Assembly (NCBI RefSeq): GCF_008831285.2
Contig: NC_045143.1
Location: 4,473,503 to 4,537,502, forward strand
From: Nymphaea colorata
Taxonomy: Eukaryota; Streptophyta; Magnoliopsida; Nymphaeales; Nymphaeaceae
Reading direction: 5' to 3'
Length of the DNA: 64,000 nt
Both the position numbers and the translations under genes were made by a program. The notes beneath the pieces are model-generated. The model was not told where the DNA came from. It saw only the letters and a list, made by a program, of their open reading frames with translations, and searched no databases. Positions 17,901 through 26,552 of the stretch are shown in pieces; position 1 is the stretch's first letter, and each line of letters starts with the position of its first letter.

Positions 17901-19590
17901 GAGTTTGTTGGGAAATGAAAAATGTAAGAAATTATTTGGTCCTAAAAGTTGAACCAAATTCATAGGACATTGGAACATATCTTACATGAATATACTCCCA
18001 ATCTTTGATGTAGATTCATGAAATAATAAAATTCACTATGTAGTAGTTCGAATCAAGAGACTGAACTCGTTCAATCAATTAGAATGTCAACGAAGCACTA
18101 GGAAAGGAATAGTGGAGCAGTTGATGATGGGTTTAGCTCAGGAGCCCACACAGAGTTCAAAGAATTTATTTCTAGGAGTTCTTTACAAGACTGTTCAGGT
18201 AAACATCATTTATTTAGCATGGAATTTATTGTTCATTGCTTGTGATTTCAGTTCATTTCATTTCCGAAACGGGAGGTGCGCATTTTGTTCATCCCTTATT
18301 TCCGCTTTGCCGGCTTGTTGAAAGCTGAATTCAATGCGAAGACATGTCTAGATGCATGCGAAGAAATGTCTCGCTGATCCGACGGTTCTCTTTTGAGATG
18401 GCCATTGGATCCATCGATTAGGATTCCTGTCAGGATGAACAAGCGGACCCTGTGTCTGTACCAATACACACCCCCGGTTTATTTATCAAAAACATATGTG
18501 TTGCTCTTTGATTATATGATATTAAAAGACACCTCTTTCTTTAATAGCAACACTCTTAAGAGAAGAAGCTATAACATTTATGAATTTCTGTGGCTTTCAC
18601 CACAACGCACGATTAGCAAATCTATCTTATTAGACGAGGAGTTTCAATTCTAGTTCACCGCATTACTACCGGTTGTCATCAGATACACTCACTCTTCTTC
18701 GATGCTCAGAATTAGATGAAAGCATCATTTTCTCATTATAGAAATTCTGTGCATCTTAATCATCGGAGATCAAACCCCCAAATAAATTATAAACGACTAA
18801 ATAATTGTAGAAATTATCCAAAAGTATTTCATTCATAGCAATGACGAAACAAAAGCCATTAGCAGAAACATAAATGCACTCTTTCAAAACTACATATTTG
18901 AAACGAGAGCTAATTTCAATCAAACCGGACATATTTGACTTACGAATCATGCAAGAAGCCACCTTTTTATGTTCCACTTCTTCAAGCAGCATAGAGTCAT
19001 CGGGAAGTCCCACGGGAGAGAGTGATGACTGGCTCGCAGATGCTATCAAGCGAAGGGAAACAGATCGGAGGACAGTAATAAAAGATGCTCAAGTACAATC
19101 TGAGCAACTCTTTTTGTCAAAATATTGCAACTCGGACTTTTAATTTAAGACACAATTGACTTGTTCTTCAGAAGTTGTGTAAGACGGCGAATTCATGTAC
19201 ATAATACACCCATTTTTAAGACAGCTAAATGTCATTTCCTCAATAGAGAAAACAGATTAACAACCATCCAACGCTTGATTGCAATGGTTTCTTGCCCATA
19301 ATGTGAAGAAATACAACAAAAGGAAATTTGAAAAGAAATTTTGATAAAAAATCAGATTTGCATCTTCAGAGTGAGAAGAGCCACATGAAACACAAGAAAC
19401 AGGTGGTCATTAATGTCTATGCAATACCCATCACGAGTTCCCATTGCGATGAGGTGAGAAATAGCTTTTGAACTGAACGCGAATTTTGTTATGCCGAGAC
19501 CCATCACAAAAAACACAGGAGAGGGCAAAAACAACCTGTAAAACAAAAAAAAACAGAAACAATTTCATAAATGATGCAAAATGGCCTCAG
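14974..19590. other. Intergenic region between the dynein light chain gene and the snoRNA cluster
   Basis: No supported gene. A MITE-like element lies at 15617-15780. A short inverted repeat (CCGTATATTG with CAATATACGG) lies near 16361-16396. A GC-richer patch at about 17160-17460 has overlapping short frames on both strands with no recognised similarity. The open frame at 18874-19143 (+) has a Ser-rich stretch and an acidic/basic tail but matches no family known to me. Confidence 0.45.
15617..15780. mobile_element. MITE-like element with CTTAGAA...CTGTTTGA termini
   Basis: About 164 bp bounded by imperfect inverted repeats of roughly 17 bp: CTTAGAAACTGTTTGA on the left and TCAAACAGCTTCTAAG on the right. 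The interior is AT-rich and contains CAGATTCATGG. A relative with similar ends and the same internal word lies at 56043-56210. No clear target duplication could be read, so the superfamily is left open. Confidence 0.55.
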
Positions 19591-19623
19591 AATTGCAGAA
19601 TTACATCAAGACTCTACAGCCTT

Positions 19624-19665
19624 TCAGTCCCGAAAGATGGTGTAATTTTTTAAAAGCTTCATCCC
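19624..19665 (-). ncRNA. Orphan rRNA guide with D box (degenerate C/D snoRNA candidate)
   Basis: The minus strand reads CACCATCTTTCGGGA followed directly by a D box CTGA (19627-19624). The first 13 bases are identical to the guide of the U18-like snoRNA at 21277-21365. No good C box or closing stem was found: GGGATGAAG near 19660 is only a weak C box and would give too short an RNA. It is either a decayed snoRNA copy at the downstream end of the cluster or one whose 5' half I cannot recognise. Confidence 0.3.
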
Positions 19666-19793
19666 TGGCCAGATCAACGACTAACATTGAAAAAAAAAAC
19701 AACAGAAAAATAGAAAGAAGCTAAATAAGAAAAAACAGAGGCATTCACGTTAGAAAATTTAAGATAACACAAAAATCTAATGACATACATAAT

Positions 19794-20006
19794 ATATGTC
19801 TCATGGCCAATCCCAGGAAGTAATGGCAGTGACACTGCTACTCAAGGCGATGGAATATGAGACCACTGAAGGAAGCACACAGCAATTAAGCTGAAGAGTG
19901 CCCATCAGTTTACTCGGAGACGTTGGCATAGGAATATGCAAGTATCATGAACTTACTCCACATATGCCAGGGAGTTCTCCTGCCAGAAGAATCAGCCCCC
20001 GTCTCA
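19794..20006 (-). ncRNA. U17/snR30-like H/ACA snoRNA, copy 1
   Basis: Minus-strand RNA of about 210 nt with three predicted stems. The 5' stem is closed by GAGACG/CGTCTC (20005 and 19917 ends). A small middle hairpin (GCAC/GTGC with CAGC/GCTG) follows. The 3' hairpin is closed by TCTC/GAGA (19862-19799) and followed at once by an ACA box (19799-19797). Just above the 3' closing stem the 5' strand reads ATATTCC (19858-19852) and the 3' strand GGCCAT (19808-19803). In U17/snR30 the m1 (AUAUUCCUA) and m2 (AAACCAU) elements sit at exactly these places. The m2 change from AACCA to GGCCA fits plant 18S, where I recall UUGGCC in place of yeast UUGGUU. U17/snR30 is needed for early cleavage of 18S precursor rather than pseudouridylation. 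The H box is not convincing here. Confidence 0.62.
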
Positions 20007-20192
20007 ATAATAGAAGTAAACGTTAAAAAAAGGACTTTGGGGACAAAACATACCACCGAGTGTAACAAACAAGTCTGGAACGTAATATGTTGTCTCTAAA
20101 AACAGGCGACAAGTACATAAAATCAACAGATTTAAAAGAACCTTTACTTAAAACAAATCATATGCTAAATGACTAAGGGATCTGACAAGAAA

Positions 20193-20425
20193 AAATGTAT
20201 ATCTCATGGCCAATCCCAGAAAGTAATGGCGGTGACACCGCTACTCAAGGCGATGGAATATGAGACATCTCATGAACAGAGGCAGCATCAACAGATTTCT
20301 CAGCGTCACTGTCGTTGATATTCACAAGTTTGATATGTGACGTTAACAAAGGAATTTACAAGCATTATCAGTTTGCTCCAAATGTTAAAGCGACCCTTCG
20401 CCAGAAGATTCGCCCCCGTCACATA
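20193..20425 (-). ncRNA. U17/snR30-like H/ACA snoRNA, copy 2
   Basis: Second copy of the RNA at 19794-20006, about 400 bp away in the same orientation. The 3' hairpin (20265-20202) has the same length and identical internal-loop sequences (ATATTCC at 20261-20255, GGCCAT at 20211-20206), but its upper stem reads GCGGTG/CACCGC where copy 1 has GCAGTG/CACTGC. The 5' stem is closed by TGTGACG/CGTCACA instead of GAGACG/CGTCTC, and an inner stem is AGCA/TGCT instead of AGTA/TACT. These are paired changes that preserve base pairing, so structure is under selection. ACA lies at 20198-20196. An H box of the form ATATCA follows the 5' stem. Confidence 0.62.
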
Positions 20426-20742
20426 TTTTCGGATGCCAAATGAACAAACCCAATAAGATTCACAAGAAACGGATGAAGAATCGTTAACTACAAGAAAGCC
20501 ATCCATCAAAAGGAATGGTGACAAGAGAAAGTAATCTACCTATGAATGCCCGATTTGAGAGGCAGCTCACAAAATATACTGATGTTGAAAACACAAGGGA
20601 AAATGTTGAAAAATAGTTTGCGAATTTGAATTTCCTTTTTTGTTGCACTACTTCAGACTCAGTATTGAATGAACGGCGAAACACCCCGTCCATGTCTCAA
20701 TTAGAGAACACGAAGGATTACGAAGAATGACCCATCCATAAA

Positions 20743-20884
20743 ACATGTAGACAGGGGGAAAGTAACAGAAAACAGACATTAGCATGTAATCTGTGTCGCA
20801 TAAGCCTGTCAAATCCATCTCTGCCTGTTTTACGAGATGCCACGCTACCATGTACCAGTCGAGGCATCAGATACCTCAGGCACA
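20743..20884 (-). ncRNA. H/ACA snoRNA predicted to guide an 18S rRNA pseudouridine
   Basis: A minus-strand RNA of about 142 nt with the standard two-hairpin form. The 5' hairpin (20882-20822) is closed by TGCCTG/CAGGCA and has an upper stem GATGCC/GGCATC. The hinge carries AGAGAT, one base off the ANANNA box. The 3' hairpin (20810-20750) is closed by GACAGG/CCTGTC, and ACA follows one base later (20748-20746). The 5' pocket strands are GGTATCT and TCGT. Together they pair with ACGA and AGAUACC on either side of UC in the conserved 18S sequence ACGAUCAGAUACC, placing the target uridine directly below the upper stem. Yeast snR31 modifies the equivalent region as I recall. The 3' hairpin has no obvious guide pocket. 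Confidence 0.72.
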
Positions 20885-21276
20885 ACGTGAAGAGCAAGTG
20901 GAAACATTCACTGTAAGAAACATAAAAAAATGAAAACAATATGAAATCAAGGAAAAAATGACACAGACGAGTTGAAGCGCTCAACCGACAAAAACTGCAC
21001 ATTGATGAAATCAAGCAACCTAATTTTTTAACATAAAATTCATCTTCACGAAAGAATGCCACCCATATTTTTCAACATGATGGATGTTCACGTATCACAA
21101 GAAATAAGAGTGCACGCACATGGAACTTTCGGTTCCAAAAGATTGCTTGGTAAAAAAGTGTAGCGCAAGGTATGAAATATGAAGAAGCAAGAGAAAATTT
21201 AAGGCAAAAGGTTCGACCATGATCTAAACACTAGAAAAGAAAAACCAGGGTCGGATCTAGAAAAACAAGACAATTC

Positions 21277-21365
21277 GTGCAACCTCAGCCGAAAGATGGT
21301 GATTATTTAGTTACTAATCACAGTCACGCTCAGTAACGTGGAATAGCATTCATCATAGATTGCAC
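21277..21365 (-). ncRNA. U18-like C/D box snoRNA targeting 25S rRNA
   Basis: An 89-nt minus-strand RNA closed by the stem GTGCAA/TTGCAC. It has a C box ATGATGA (21355-21349), an internal D' box CTGA (21333-21330) and a terminal D box CTGA (21288-21285). The 13 bases before the D box, CACCATCTTTCGG, are complementary to the conserved 25S/28S sequence CCGAAAGAUGGUG. The fifth base from the D box would direct 2'-O-methylation of the second A in CCGAAAG, the site assigned to U18 in yeast and human as I recall. The D' guide has no target I recognise. Confidence 0.82.
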
Positions 21366-21390
21366 CGATAACAAAAACATAAACGCAATG

Positions 21391-22123
21391 AAAGACTTTC
21401 CAGTTCACAGATAATGCCCAAAAAGTTTGGGTCTTCCCGATTCAACCTAGCTTTAGACAAAGCAGGTGGATCAAGGCTTGACCCTGCCCATTACCACACA
21501 ACGAAAAAAAAGGAAAAGTAAGAAGAGTGACAGATAGGGGAATCAGATGGTAGTGCATGTTAAAGATTCATCATTCGAATGCAGACTTATTTTGGGTTAT
21601 TTCATCATCATATTGCCCCCAATACAATAATCGAAATGCAAAACGGAAAAATACTAAGACTAAATAAAACTTCTCAAATCCGGAAAACACTCAACGACGC
21701 ACAAAGAGAAGACCACCGGATAAAGAGAGAGTGTGAGAGTGATCAGATGCAAATGTCGTTCACCATGGGCGCCATAAAGGACGCAAGTAAGACTGGGGCG
21801 ACAAGTAGAATCATCACCTTCAACTCCCACCAATCTGTTTAGCAAAGAGCGAAGGGAAGGAGAGAGGAAGGGATTTGGGGTGAGGGAAGAGGAAAAGGAG
21901 AAACGAGTATGGGAAGAGTCTGCGACTGCAAGCGGCGGCACCCCTTCGACCCATAAATAGGGTTTAGGGTTTCGGGGTTTTAGGCTGGAGGGGCAGTTTG
22001 CCGCGGCATATGCAAACGGGTGGACGGGTCCCAAATCATGCTCCTGCCAGATCCGAACTTAAAACTAAATCGGATCCCTAAAAACATGCCCAAAATAATT
22101 CGTCGACGGCAAAGAAACGGGTG
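21391..22123. repeat. Tandem segmental duplication, copy 1 (snoRNA promoter region)
   Basis: This segment is repeated in direct orientation at about 23740-24388 with scattered substitutions and small deletions. It contains the telo-box promoter and the first part of the presumed transcript. Shared landmarks are AAAAAGTTTGGGTCTTCCCG, the CACCATGGGCGCC region and the telo-box. The duplicated part stops short of the U18-like RNA, so only this copy is attached to the snoRNA genes. Confidence 0.88.
21953..21972 (-). promoter_or_regulatory. Telo-box and TATA-like promoter of the snoRNA cluster
   Basis: On the minus strand AAACCCTAAACCCTA (21972-21958) runs into TATTTAT (21959-21953). Telo-boxes (AAACCCTA) near the start site are characteristic of plant snoRNA, ribosomal protein and other translation-related genes. 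All the snoRNAs lie downstream in this reading direction, the nearest about 600 bp away, which fits one polycistronic RNA polymerase II transcript. The transcription start is inferred. Confidence 0.6.
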
Positions 22124-23316
22124 TAGTTAATGAGTACCGAATATCCAATCTTTTGGGTGAGAATAGGATCTAAGTGGATCGCATCAGATTTGGTATGAAA
22201 ACCCAACATTGATCAAATTGAAAATCTAATGTTAAATTTTCTCATCAAACACAAACAAATCTATTCAAATTCTAATCTAATATGGAAACTATATTTCAAC
22301 CACTGAACAATATACGTGAAAAAAGGGCGAAGTTGTAGGGGTGGATACAAGCGACCCACTTTCATTTTGCAATAGGGTGATATCGATCTGCTCTGGGTAG
22401 TGGGTATTTTTTGACAAAACTTTGATTTGTAATCCAGATTTGTATAAACTTATTGTCTGGATCTGGACTTTCGTGATTGAAAGTGGGAGCATATAAGGGT
22501 TGGAACTCAGATCTGTGGAAGACCTGTCCAGATTAATTGGGTTGAGTCAGAGAGCATCTAGGGTTTGTATCACCAAGGTGAAATGGAGTGCAAATGTAAA
22601 CCGGTTCATGCAACGCATTTTGGACCAGTTCCTGTTTCATTTAATATGTACTGCCCATTTACAAACCAAAAAAGAAACCCTAAATATCATTATTTTTTCA
22701 GTGGTATCCTCTTTTCAGCGGCAGCCCCTTCTTCTTTTTCCGGCGCCTTGCTTTGTATTGTAATGACTATTGATCATTATTGTTAGGTTTTTCAGTGTAA
22801 CGACCGCAAGTCTGCAACTCTGTTTTCTTATTCGCAGCATGTTTTTCGTTGTGAATACGTGTGATGTTCATGTATCGATGAAACTACTAGTCTTTCAAAC
22901 TGTGATGCATCGTTTCTATGAGGCTATTAGTAGTGTCTGAACCCTGTTTTTTGTTCCTGTTTGCTTGCAGTGTGTTACTGATGTCCCAATAAAATTGCAA
23001 AAAGGTAAAGCAACTTGGACTCCAAATCCTGGATCTTGTTTCTCCGATGGGAAAGTTATCCAACTTAGGGTAAACGTAAAGAAGTCCTTCCTTCCAGCAC
23101 TCAAAACACTCCTTTAATCAGCTGCCGTTCAAAGAAAGCGTAAAAGCAATGTCAGCAACAATTTTTGTGGCTGATTTAAGAGTACCACTTATAGATTTCT
23201 AATTAAAGATGTCTTATAAATATTTATTTTCTTTTTTTAGAGATATTTTTTATTGTTTTCTATGAATATCTTCACCGATTAGCAACCTCACCTAAAAATA
23301 AATCTAAATAGAATAT

Positions 23317-23594
23317 AACGAAATCAATAGTATTATAAAATATGATGATGTTATTTGATTGTTGTACATTATTTTTGTCTTTTTACTTACTCTCGTTACT
23401 TTTATTTAAATTTGTCCCTATTTAATGTGTAGCCACATAAGTAATTTAAATAAATTATGTTAGTTGTTACTTATGTGGCTATACATTAAATAGGGACAAA
23501 TTTAAATAAAAGTAACGAGAGGAAGTAAGAGGATAAAAATAATGTACAACAATCAAATAAAATCATCATATTTTATAATATTATTAATTTCGTT
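23317..23594. mobile_element. Long inverted-repeat (foldback) element, 278 bp
   Basis: Two arms of about 125 bp, 23317-23441 and 23471-23594, are inverted copies with only a few mismatches and are separated by a short AT-rich spacer. The outer ends read AACGAAAT and ATTTCGTT. A transcript would fold into one long hairpin. The form suits a foldback MITE; no target duplication was clear, and nothing is encoded. Confidence 0.88.
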
Positions 23595-23739
23595 CAAGTA
23601 AATAATTCAAATCTCGTTATTCACTTTTGAACAATGTAAATAATCAAAATAATATTTAGCATTGAATATGTTCATTTGCATTAGAATAACACCGGCAATT
23701 GAATGTATGGTGGATCGAGCTCTTATTATTCACAATAAA

Positions 23740-24388
23740 AAAGTTTGCAGTTCCCAGATACTGCTCAAAAAGTTTGGGTCTTCCCGATTCAACTCAGTCT
23801 TGGACAAAGCCGGTGGATTAAGGCTTGACTCAACAAAAACTAAAAAAGTACGAAGAGTCACAGGAATCGGATGGTAGATTCATCATTCGAATACAGACGT
23901 ATTAGGGTTATTCCATCGTCATATTTCCCCCAATTCAATACTCGAAATGCAAAACGGGAAAGCACTAAGACTAACTAAAACTTCTCAAATCTGGAAAACC
24001 ATCAACGATGCGAAAAGAGAAACCACTGGAGAAAGAGAGTGTGTGAGAGTGATCAGAGGGAATTGTCGTTCACCATGGGCGCCCAATAGAGGACGCAAGT
24101 AAGACTGGGGCGACATGTAGAATCATCACCTTCAACTCCCACCAATCTGCTTAGCAAAGAGCGAAGGAAAGAGAGAGAGCGAAGGAAAGAGACTGCTACT
24201 GCGAGCGGCGGCGGCCACTCCTTCGACCCATAAATAGGGTTTAGGGTTTCGGGGGCCAGCCTCCCGCGGCAGCTGCAAACGGGTCCCAAATCATGGTCCT
24301 GTCAGATCCGAGCTTGAAACTAAATCGGATCCCTAAAAACATGCTCAAAAATTCAAAATAATTCGTCGACGGCAAAGAAATGGGTATG
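23740..24388. repeat. Tandem segmental duplication, copy 2 (isolated snoRNA promoter)
   Basis: Direct repeat of 21391-22123, about 2.35 kb away. The telo-box and TATA-like motif are intact at 24230-24249, but none of the snoRNAs found downstream of copy 1 follows it. It is therefore a promoter copy without its RNA genes. Confidence 0.88.
24230..24249 (-). promoter_or_regulatory. Second telo-box and TATA-like promoter (duplicate)
   Basis: AAACCCTAAACCCTA (24249-24235) followed by TATTTAT on the minus strand, identical to the motif at 21953-21972. If active it would drive transcription through the rest of the duplicate and towards the foldback element at 23317-23594. Whether it is used cannot be told from sequence. 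Confidence 0.45.
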
Positions 24389-24410
24389 GACCTTAAACCC
24401 TAGGGGTGAA

Positions 24411-24895
24411 CAAATTCGAGCCGAGTCATCTGCTTAACGAGTCGAGCTCGAGTTCATGAGTCAACTCGTTCAAATAATCGAGTTGAGTTCGAGCTCAACA
24501 CGTAACTATCTAGTCGAGTTCGAGTCTTAATCGAGTTTGTCGAGCCTTAATCAAGTCGAGCTCGAGCTCAACACATAATGATGAATATCAATTTTATTCA
24601 AACGAGTTTGTCGAATTCGAACTCAACACATAATGATGAATATTGATTTTATTCAAACGGGTTTTCCGAGCCTTAATCGAGCCGAACTTGTTCATAACAG
24701 GTAATGATGAATATCAATTCTATTCAAATGAGTTTGTTGAGCTTTAATCGAGTCGAGCTCAAGCTCAACAACTGACTGCCGATTCAAGCTCGAGCTGCTT
24801 TCATCAAGCTATTCTCGAGTCGAGCTCGAGGTTTTATTAGTCGAGCCGAGATCGAGCTAACTGAACTCGGGTTCGGCTCGACTAGTGTTCACCTA
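24411..24895. mobile_element. Non-autonomous hAT-like element rich in TCGAGCTCGA words
   Basis: The left end is TAGGGGTGAACA and the right end TGTTCACCTA, an inverted pair. The 485-bp interior is an irregular array built from GAGCTCGAG-type palindromes and repeats of CATAATGATGAATATCAAT. A related element of 502 bp lies at 39473-39974. No 8-bp target duplication remains here, perhaps because the left flank was rearranged by the nearby duplication. Confidence 0.65.
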
Positions 24896-26552
24896 ATTCT
24901 AGACTCATTTAAAGAGTTTTAAAAGGGTTTTGTCCATCTTTAGACCGATTCATAAGGTTTTGAAGTCGTTTTTATTCTTTTATTGACAGTTTGAATACTT
25001 ATGACACTGGCTTAAGCAGTTGGAGACGGGTTTCCCGCATTATTTTTGACTGGTTAATGAGGCTTTTGAACCAATTAACCAAACCTTATTCTTGGTTCGG
25101 GGCATTTAGAGATTGATACAATGGTTGGTTTTGTTCGCGACATAAGAGTCATCCCACTTCATTTAGAATGCAAAAATCAGCTCATGGCTTTTTCCATATG
25201 GTCATTATTTTGTAATGTGTTTAGTAAACGATGAAGTTTGCTCTATGTGAAAGTTAATGATAAGCATGTTATTTGTAATGTCGCACCCACTTATATCTTG
25301 TTCGTTTTCCCCATAAACAATCTTTTGGTTTTTAGCAAATAAAGTTGTTTGATAATGGACTACTGCATACTTAAGTTCATAAGAGCTTCAAGGCATTTTA
25401 TTGCCATTGACATCGTTCTATTGAATTTAAGGCTAGTGCGTTAAGCTTTTCAATTGGATTGCTAATATTTGATCAACCCATTTGAACTATTTTAAGCTAT
25501 TTTTTGGAGTTACAGACCCAGTTCATGCAATAAGTGAATCATTTCATGAAGGTGTGGAATTAATTTATGCAATAACCGAGTTGAGGAGTATGTTCTCGAG
25601 AATGAAACTATGGAGTCCGAAATATCATTTTTTTAAATTTTAATATATAATATATATAACTTTTTAAAATTTATATGTAAACTAAAAAAAATATTTGAGG
25701 AATTTTGGGTGGCTGGGTCCTACTGTCATATTTGCATTAATGTGAACTTGTCTTTTTGTTAGTTTTCCACCAAAATTCATGGTACATCAATGGCTACGCA
25801 TGCAACGCCCCACCTTTGTTAATGGTGTGACATTGTCCTTCGTTCATCATTAATGAAAAGGGTAGTTTGGGCTTTAGACTTGATCCATGACTTGAAAAAA
25901 GTTTTAAATATTTTTTTTGAGGAGTTTTTGTGAGAAATAATGAAACCTAAAACTGATAATTGAAAATTTGGCACAGTTATGCAATTTACTTTAAAAATTT
26001 CTAAAGAATTTTCTTTTCTTTGTTGGTTGAATATAACCATAAGTTCATCTATAATAACAACAATTTTTTACTTTAGAAATGCCATTACGGTACATTTTGA
26101 TTAGATTGGATCTCAGATATGAGGTCCTATCAACCAAGAGATCTAAATGAGCTATTTGACAGCAGGGATATTTTCAAAATATTTTATGAATCTGTCGTAA
26201 AGATTGAGTAAATTTATGACACTAGAACTATTGTTATGTGAATCTGCTTCAACTTTTGAGACAAATTCATAAAACACTCATAAAATGTCTATGCTGCAAA
26301 CGATCCCTAACATGAATGAAAGGTCTAACATCTTTAGATCTCAAGATCGCTCAAATCCCTTGAGAGAGAGAGAGAGAAATCGAACCGGCCGTATGGGTCA
26401 GGGTTATCAAACACCCCTTTTAATTGATGATCCAAGGTTTATTCAAGACTTTGAGATGGCAAATAATTATATTATGCTTTGCATGTCTCATTTAAGTAAC
26501 CCATGTTATAAATATGCAACTTAGTCAATGTCAATGAATCATACTCAAATAT

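Follow-up and report, generated by a model that had tools for sequence, protein, structure and literature searches.

Two tandem RNAs in a small nucleolar RNA cluster of Nymphaea colorata are probable plant snR30/U17 RNAs with a compensated m2 motif

In yeast and animals, the making of the small ribosomal subunit requires an RNA that is named snR30 in yeast and U17 in vertebrates. A passage of a 2021 review states that this RNA has not been identified in Arabidopsis thaliana and suggests an independent pathway. Whether plants do possess it is the question raised by a locus of Nymphaea colorata, situated in a stretch of 64,000 nucleotides (nt) that was analysed as a whole and is called the window here (assembly GCF_008831285.2, contig NC_045143.1, forward-strand positions 4,473,503 to 4,537,502). 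The minus strand of the window carries a cluster of small nucleolar RNAs (snoRNAs), in which a first-pass annotation had seen two tandem U17/snR30-like RNAs at 20425-20193 and 20006-19794. Both were recovered and re-delimited as RNA A (20426-20193) and RNA B (20009-19790). Judged from their sequences, A and B are very likely plant snR30/U17 RNAs, and we file them as a probable plant variant with a compensated m2 motif in an otherwise ordinary snoRNA cluster. Their features are as follows.

20193..20426, minus strand: RNA A, snR30/U17-like, three hairpins; from folds and alignment; kept in a second locus, L009
20253..20261, minus strand: m1-like AUAUUCCAU of RNA A
20206..20211, minus strand: m2-like GGCCAU of RNA A
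19790..20009, minus strand: RNA B, second snR30/U17-like RNA, three hairpins; from folds and alignment
19850..19858, minus strand: m1-like AUAUUCCAU of RNA B
19803..19808, minus strand: m2-like GGCCAU of RNA B

With regard to their architecture, A and B resemble snR30 and U17 in being of the H/ACA type with a 5', an internal and a 3' hairpin. The comparison covers the DNA of one genome and five copies of the A/B family, and single-sequence folds predict the three hairpins in all five copies and in their consensus. At 12 of the 76 pairs of the consensus fold, at least one copy differs in both bases and still pairs; as the copies are few and related, this covariation support is modest. The ends of both RNAs were placed from folds and alignment, which gives lengths of 234 nt for A and 220 nt for B, near the 203-222 nt that the full-length entries of Table 1 in a review of snR30 (PMC7601244) show for C. 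elegans and for U17 of vertebrates. RNA A exhibits an H box, AUAUCA (20336-20331), and an ACA (20198-20196). In RNA B, an AUA (19795-19793) takes the place of the ACA and CGAGUA (19916-19911) occupies the H-box site. The m1-like and m2-like motifs lie on the basal side of the pocket of the 3' hairpin (CUCAUAUUCCAU...GGCCAUGAG), which is the side that pairs with rm1 and rm2 of ES6 in snR30/U17, and m1 AUAUUCC stands on the 5' strand of this pocket in all five copies, RNAs A and B included. When m1 and m2 are held open in the fold of RNA A, the stem above the pocket ends 16 nt before the ACA (counted by eye); the review passage on this spacing gives 14-16 nt from the upper stem to the ACA (PMC7601244).

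The predicted contact is with the 18S ribosomal RNA (rRNA). Table 1 of the same review lists 14 species, none of them a plant, with m1 AUAUUCC followed by UA, UU or UG, and with m2 AAACCAU (PMC7601244). The m1 of A and B agrees with the first seven letters, AUAUUCC, in 14/14 of the listed species. Since the review reports, in its passage on the motifs, that their variation is accompanied by matching changes in rm1 and rm2, pairing with the rm elements is a better criterion than the literal m2. Yeast rm1 and rm2 are placed at 801-806 and 836-841 in the relevant passage of PMC9176245, whose printed primers give GGAAUA and UGGUUU by count. In the genome's own 18S, rm1 is found in CAUGGGAUAACAUC (a fragment on contig C9) and rm2 in GUUGGCCUUCGG (a fragment on contig C6), with GGGAUA at rm1 and UGGCC at rm2. 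Both fragments agree with the plant 18S sequence. The m1 UAUUCCAU pairs at 8/8 positions with AUGGGAUA, including one G-U, and the m2 GGCCA pairs at 5/5 with UGGCC; yeast m2 pairs at only 4/6 with the plant rm2. Relative to yeast, two m2/rm2 base pairs have thus changed on both sides, with the pairing kept. A and B differ from known snR30/U17 in exhibiting GGCCAU instead of AAACCAU, matched by a plant rm2 that reads UGGCC instead of UGGUUU, and also in standing as a tandem pair within a mixed C/D-H/ACA cluster. Dispersed 18S fragments of ribosomal DNA (rDNA) lie at C6:19880521 (L013) and C9:14555581 (L016), far from any rDNA unit seen, and no intact rDNA unit was found in the assembly.

Several observations weigh against assigning A and B to snR30/U17. 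The literal m2 AAACCAU is absent, GGCCAU being present in 5/5 copies, and the 18S sequence was taken from two rDNA fragments rather than from an intact unit. Where snR30/U17 has an ACA box 3 nt before the 3' end, an end placed here by folds and alignment, A reads ACA (window, L009 and a further copy in L008) and both copies of B read AUA (window and L009), and a canonical H box ANANNA follows the 5' hairpin in 3/5 copies, the other two differing at the first A (by eye). The minimum-energy fold partly shuts the pocket, whose opening costs 5.2-5.5 kcal/mol. The scan with Rfam models that the first-pass annotation had proposed matched the C/D members and the snoR5a-like RNA of the cluster, and left A and B without a match to any family, including the snR30/U17 models (cmscan up to E 10), apart from a chance-level microRNA match. 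The snR30 model RF01271, which is presumably fungal, found nothing genome-wide, but it was silent in its controls as well. Taken by itself, the m2 match lacks significance, as 182,687 of 200,000 shuffles equal it, and when any register is allowed, shuffled pocket strands equal the whole match in 6,795 of 200,000 cases, which makes this a weak test.

This last result, together with the H/ACA-like architecture and the missing snR30/U17 match in Rfam, would suit large plant-specific H/ACA pseudouridylation guides in which the m1-like and m2-like strings are coincidental. The match nevertheless falls in the homologous register, in which shuffled pocket strands yield the m1 core and m2 jointly in 6 of 1,000,000 cases. 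Opening m1 and m2 leaves just about two bases on the 5' strand and about three on the 3' strand beside the upper stem. Moreover, A and B, identical at 66 of 72 columns of the 3' hairpin, agree at only 59 of 97 in the 5' hairpin and at 16 of 81 in the middle part. We therefore regard such guides as improbable. The pattern ATATTCCAT N25-55 GGCCATG has 16 matches genome-wide, compared with one for the backwards control. Five of these 16 belong to the A/B family (A and B of the window, A and B on contig C8, and the copy of A at C6:19.0 Mb). In the six examined among the other 11, the lower stem is 2-6 bp long, and neither ACA nor AUA occurs within 16 bases.

Searching the genome itself at the DNA level identified L009, on C8, which holds A, B and SNORD96 (53.8 bits) in the same order as the window. 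Between the two loci, the 5', middle and 3' hairpins of A are identical at 80/91, 55/68 and 70/75 positions, those of B at 74/98, 39/46 and 73/73, and SNORD96 at 75/90, compared with 92/158, 101/179, 46/114 and 43/81 for flanks and spacers. Overall, the A, B and SNORD96 segments retain 76-100% identity, and the spacers and flanks 40-58%, a contrast that speaks for more than a chance arrangement. As the first two hairpins of A are also well kept, the comparison of these two loci shows that selection acts on the whole RNAs and most strongly on the 3' hairpin. Between A and B, too, the 3' hairpin is far better kept than the rest, which agrees with the pattern known for snR30/U17: according to the corresponding passage of the review, its 3' hairpin is conserved, and its 5' and internal hairpins are divergent, and dispensable in yeast (PMC7601244). 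Bases of the 3' hairpin that are specific to A or to B persist in both loci, which argues against gene conversion alone.

These comparisons also bear on the idea that A and B have decayed or fallen silent, so that no functional RNA is made from them any longer. RNA B is devoid of a canonical ACA and H box, and an example of decay exists in this genome: the copy of A in L008 (C6:19.0 Mb), with hairpins 0.88-0.89 identical to the window, spacers at 0.83-0.86 and a 3' hairpin no better kept than the other two, looks to be decaying. In contrast, the 3' hairpins of the window pair remain identical or nearly so to those of L009 across diverged spacers and flanks, and the telo-box and the other members of the cluster are intact according to Rfam. 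Decay of A and B is accordingly very improbable.

The other features of the cluster are listed from upstream to downstream.

23733..24385, minus strand: upstream partial duplicate (promoter, U31b at 24133-24051, broken SNORD33)
21958..21972, minus strand: doubled telo-box AAACCCTAAACCCTA, starting at 21972, with TATTTAT (TATA-like) immediately next; pattern scan; putative promoter
21741..21821, minus strand: U31b, C/D snoRNA; Rfam RF01285, 50.6 bits, cut-off 37
21537..21618, minus strand: SNORD33; Rfam RF00133, 50.8 bits, cut-off 44
21278..21364, minus strand: snoZ196, C/D RNA; Rfam RF00134, 63.2 bits, cut-off 55, E 4.6e-8
20743..20885, minus strand: snoR5a/F1-F2-like H/ACA snoRNA; Rfam RF00482, 45.5 bits, gathering score 60
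19582..19671, minus strand: SNORD96, C/D snoRNA; Rfam RF00055, 64.8 bits, cut-off 43, E 1e-10

Several same-strand snoRNAs (those matched by Rfam, with A and B) and an upstream telo-box are both present, as in plant polycistronic snoRNA genes. Apart from A and B, the predicted cluster is an ordinary plant snoRNA cluster with a putative common precursor; mixed C/D and H/ACA polycistrons preceded by a telo-box and TATA-like sequence are already known in plants, according to the part of PMC4660826 that describes them. It differs from these genes in having no Site II element TGGGCY on either strand of 19000-25000 (pattern scan) and in containing an snR30/U17-like pair. Rfam matches, the pattern scan, folds and alignment confirmed that the elements of the first-pass annotation exist near the places given for them, including the telo-box of the putative promoter, while its interpretation of the cluster as a whole is supported in part. 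A C/D snoRNA does lie at 21365-21277, but Rfam names it snoZ196 where U18 had been suggested. The supposed orphan guide with a D box at 19627 is a real member, and it is SNORD96 rather than an orphan. U31b, SNORD33 and the second U31b, in the upstream tandem partial duplicate (43.7 bits against a cut-off of 37), had been overlooked. The H/ACA RNA proposed at 20884-20743 holds as a match to snoF1_F2/snoR5a that aligns all 140 model positions (E 2.7e-7 in a 1191-base search), with a score under the gathering score. In keeping with the view that the region holds no supported protein gene, neither of two minus-strand frames of the cluster that were compared with Pfam (20718-21071 and 21660-22058) matches a family.

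Just past the end of the partial duplicate, at 23317-23594, lies a palindrome of about 280 bases with a 90% self-complementary match, resembling a miniature inverted-repeat transposable element. Fragments of the cluster occur in L008 (C6:19.0 Mb), L010 (C14:8.99 Mb) and L011 (C6:24.2 Mb), with a common break at window position 21290/21291 and internal deletions, and lie next to a stretch of over 2 kb that all three loci share. As L011:1280-651 encodes the C-terminus of a hAT transposase (PF05699, 5.2e-18; PF14372, 5.2e-17), it looks as if a hAT element captured part of the cluster. In L008 (2854-3956), the snoR5a-like RNA is identical to window 20743-20885 at 136 of 143 positions; given the more diverged spacers of this copy, it may have remained functional for some time after duplication.

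Taken one step further, we are somewhat inclined to see in A and B the snR30/U17 that plants seemed to lack, which would have escaped detection because both sides of m2/rm2 changed (GGCCA/UGGCC versus AAACCA/UGGUUU). Their existence as two diverged versions, in tandem in two loci, suggests two snR30 particles, one with the ACA of A and one with the AUA of B, which would share the same grip on ES6 and differ in their 5' domains. Known snR30/U17 is needed in the early processing of the 18S precursor, and H/ACA proteins, Utp23 and Kri1 bind it. By extension from yeast and human work, described in part in PMC12095548, a ribonucleoprotein of Cbf5, Gar1, Nop10 and Nhp2 with an A/B-type RNA would hybridise to ES6 and coordinate Krr1, Utp23 and Kri1, the 18S platform being kept as a separate unit until release. 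A gene for a Kri1_C protein is present in the genome.

A smaller, though appreciable, chance goes to an ordinary plant polycistronic cluster whose U17-like members were reported earlier under different names, which would be compatible with the snR30/U17 assignment. Telo-box polycistrons with both snoRNA classes are known, a passage of PMC5122169 mentions plant snoRNAs that are orphans, having no known target, and an earlier description of A and B is possible because subscription journals and preprints lay outside the literature search. On the other side stands the statement of the 2021 review on A. thaliana, and the titles and abstract openings on snR30 with Arabidopsis report no such RNA. A survey of plant snoRNA families (PMC5122169) names none of U17, snR30 and SNORA73 in its main text, the main text of the Ostreococcus survey PMC7671301 names neither U17 nor snR30, and no report of a plant snR30/U17 was met in the literature searched, which was covered partly by titles and passages.

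If A and B are snR30/U17, plants use the same chaperone of the 18S platform, and no separate explanation is needed for them. The double change in m2 and rm2 would then amount to a compensatory experiment of nature on the snR30-ES6 duplex, and would provide a search model for snR30/U17 in other green genomes.
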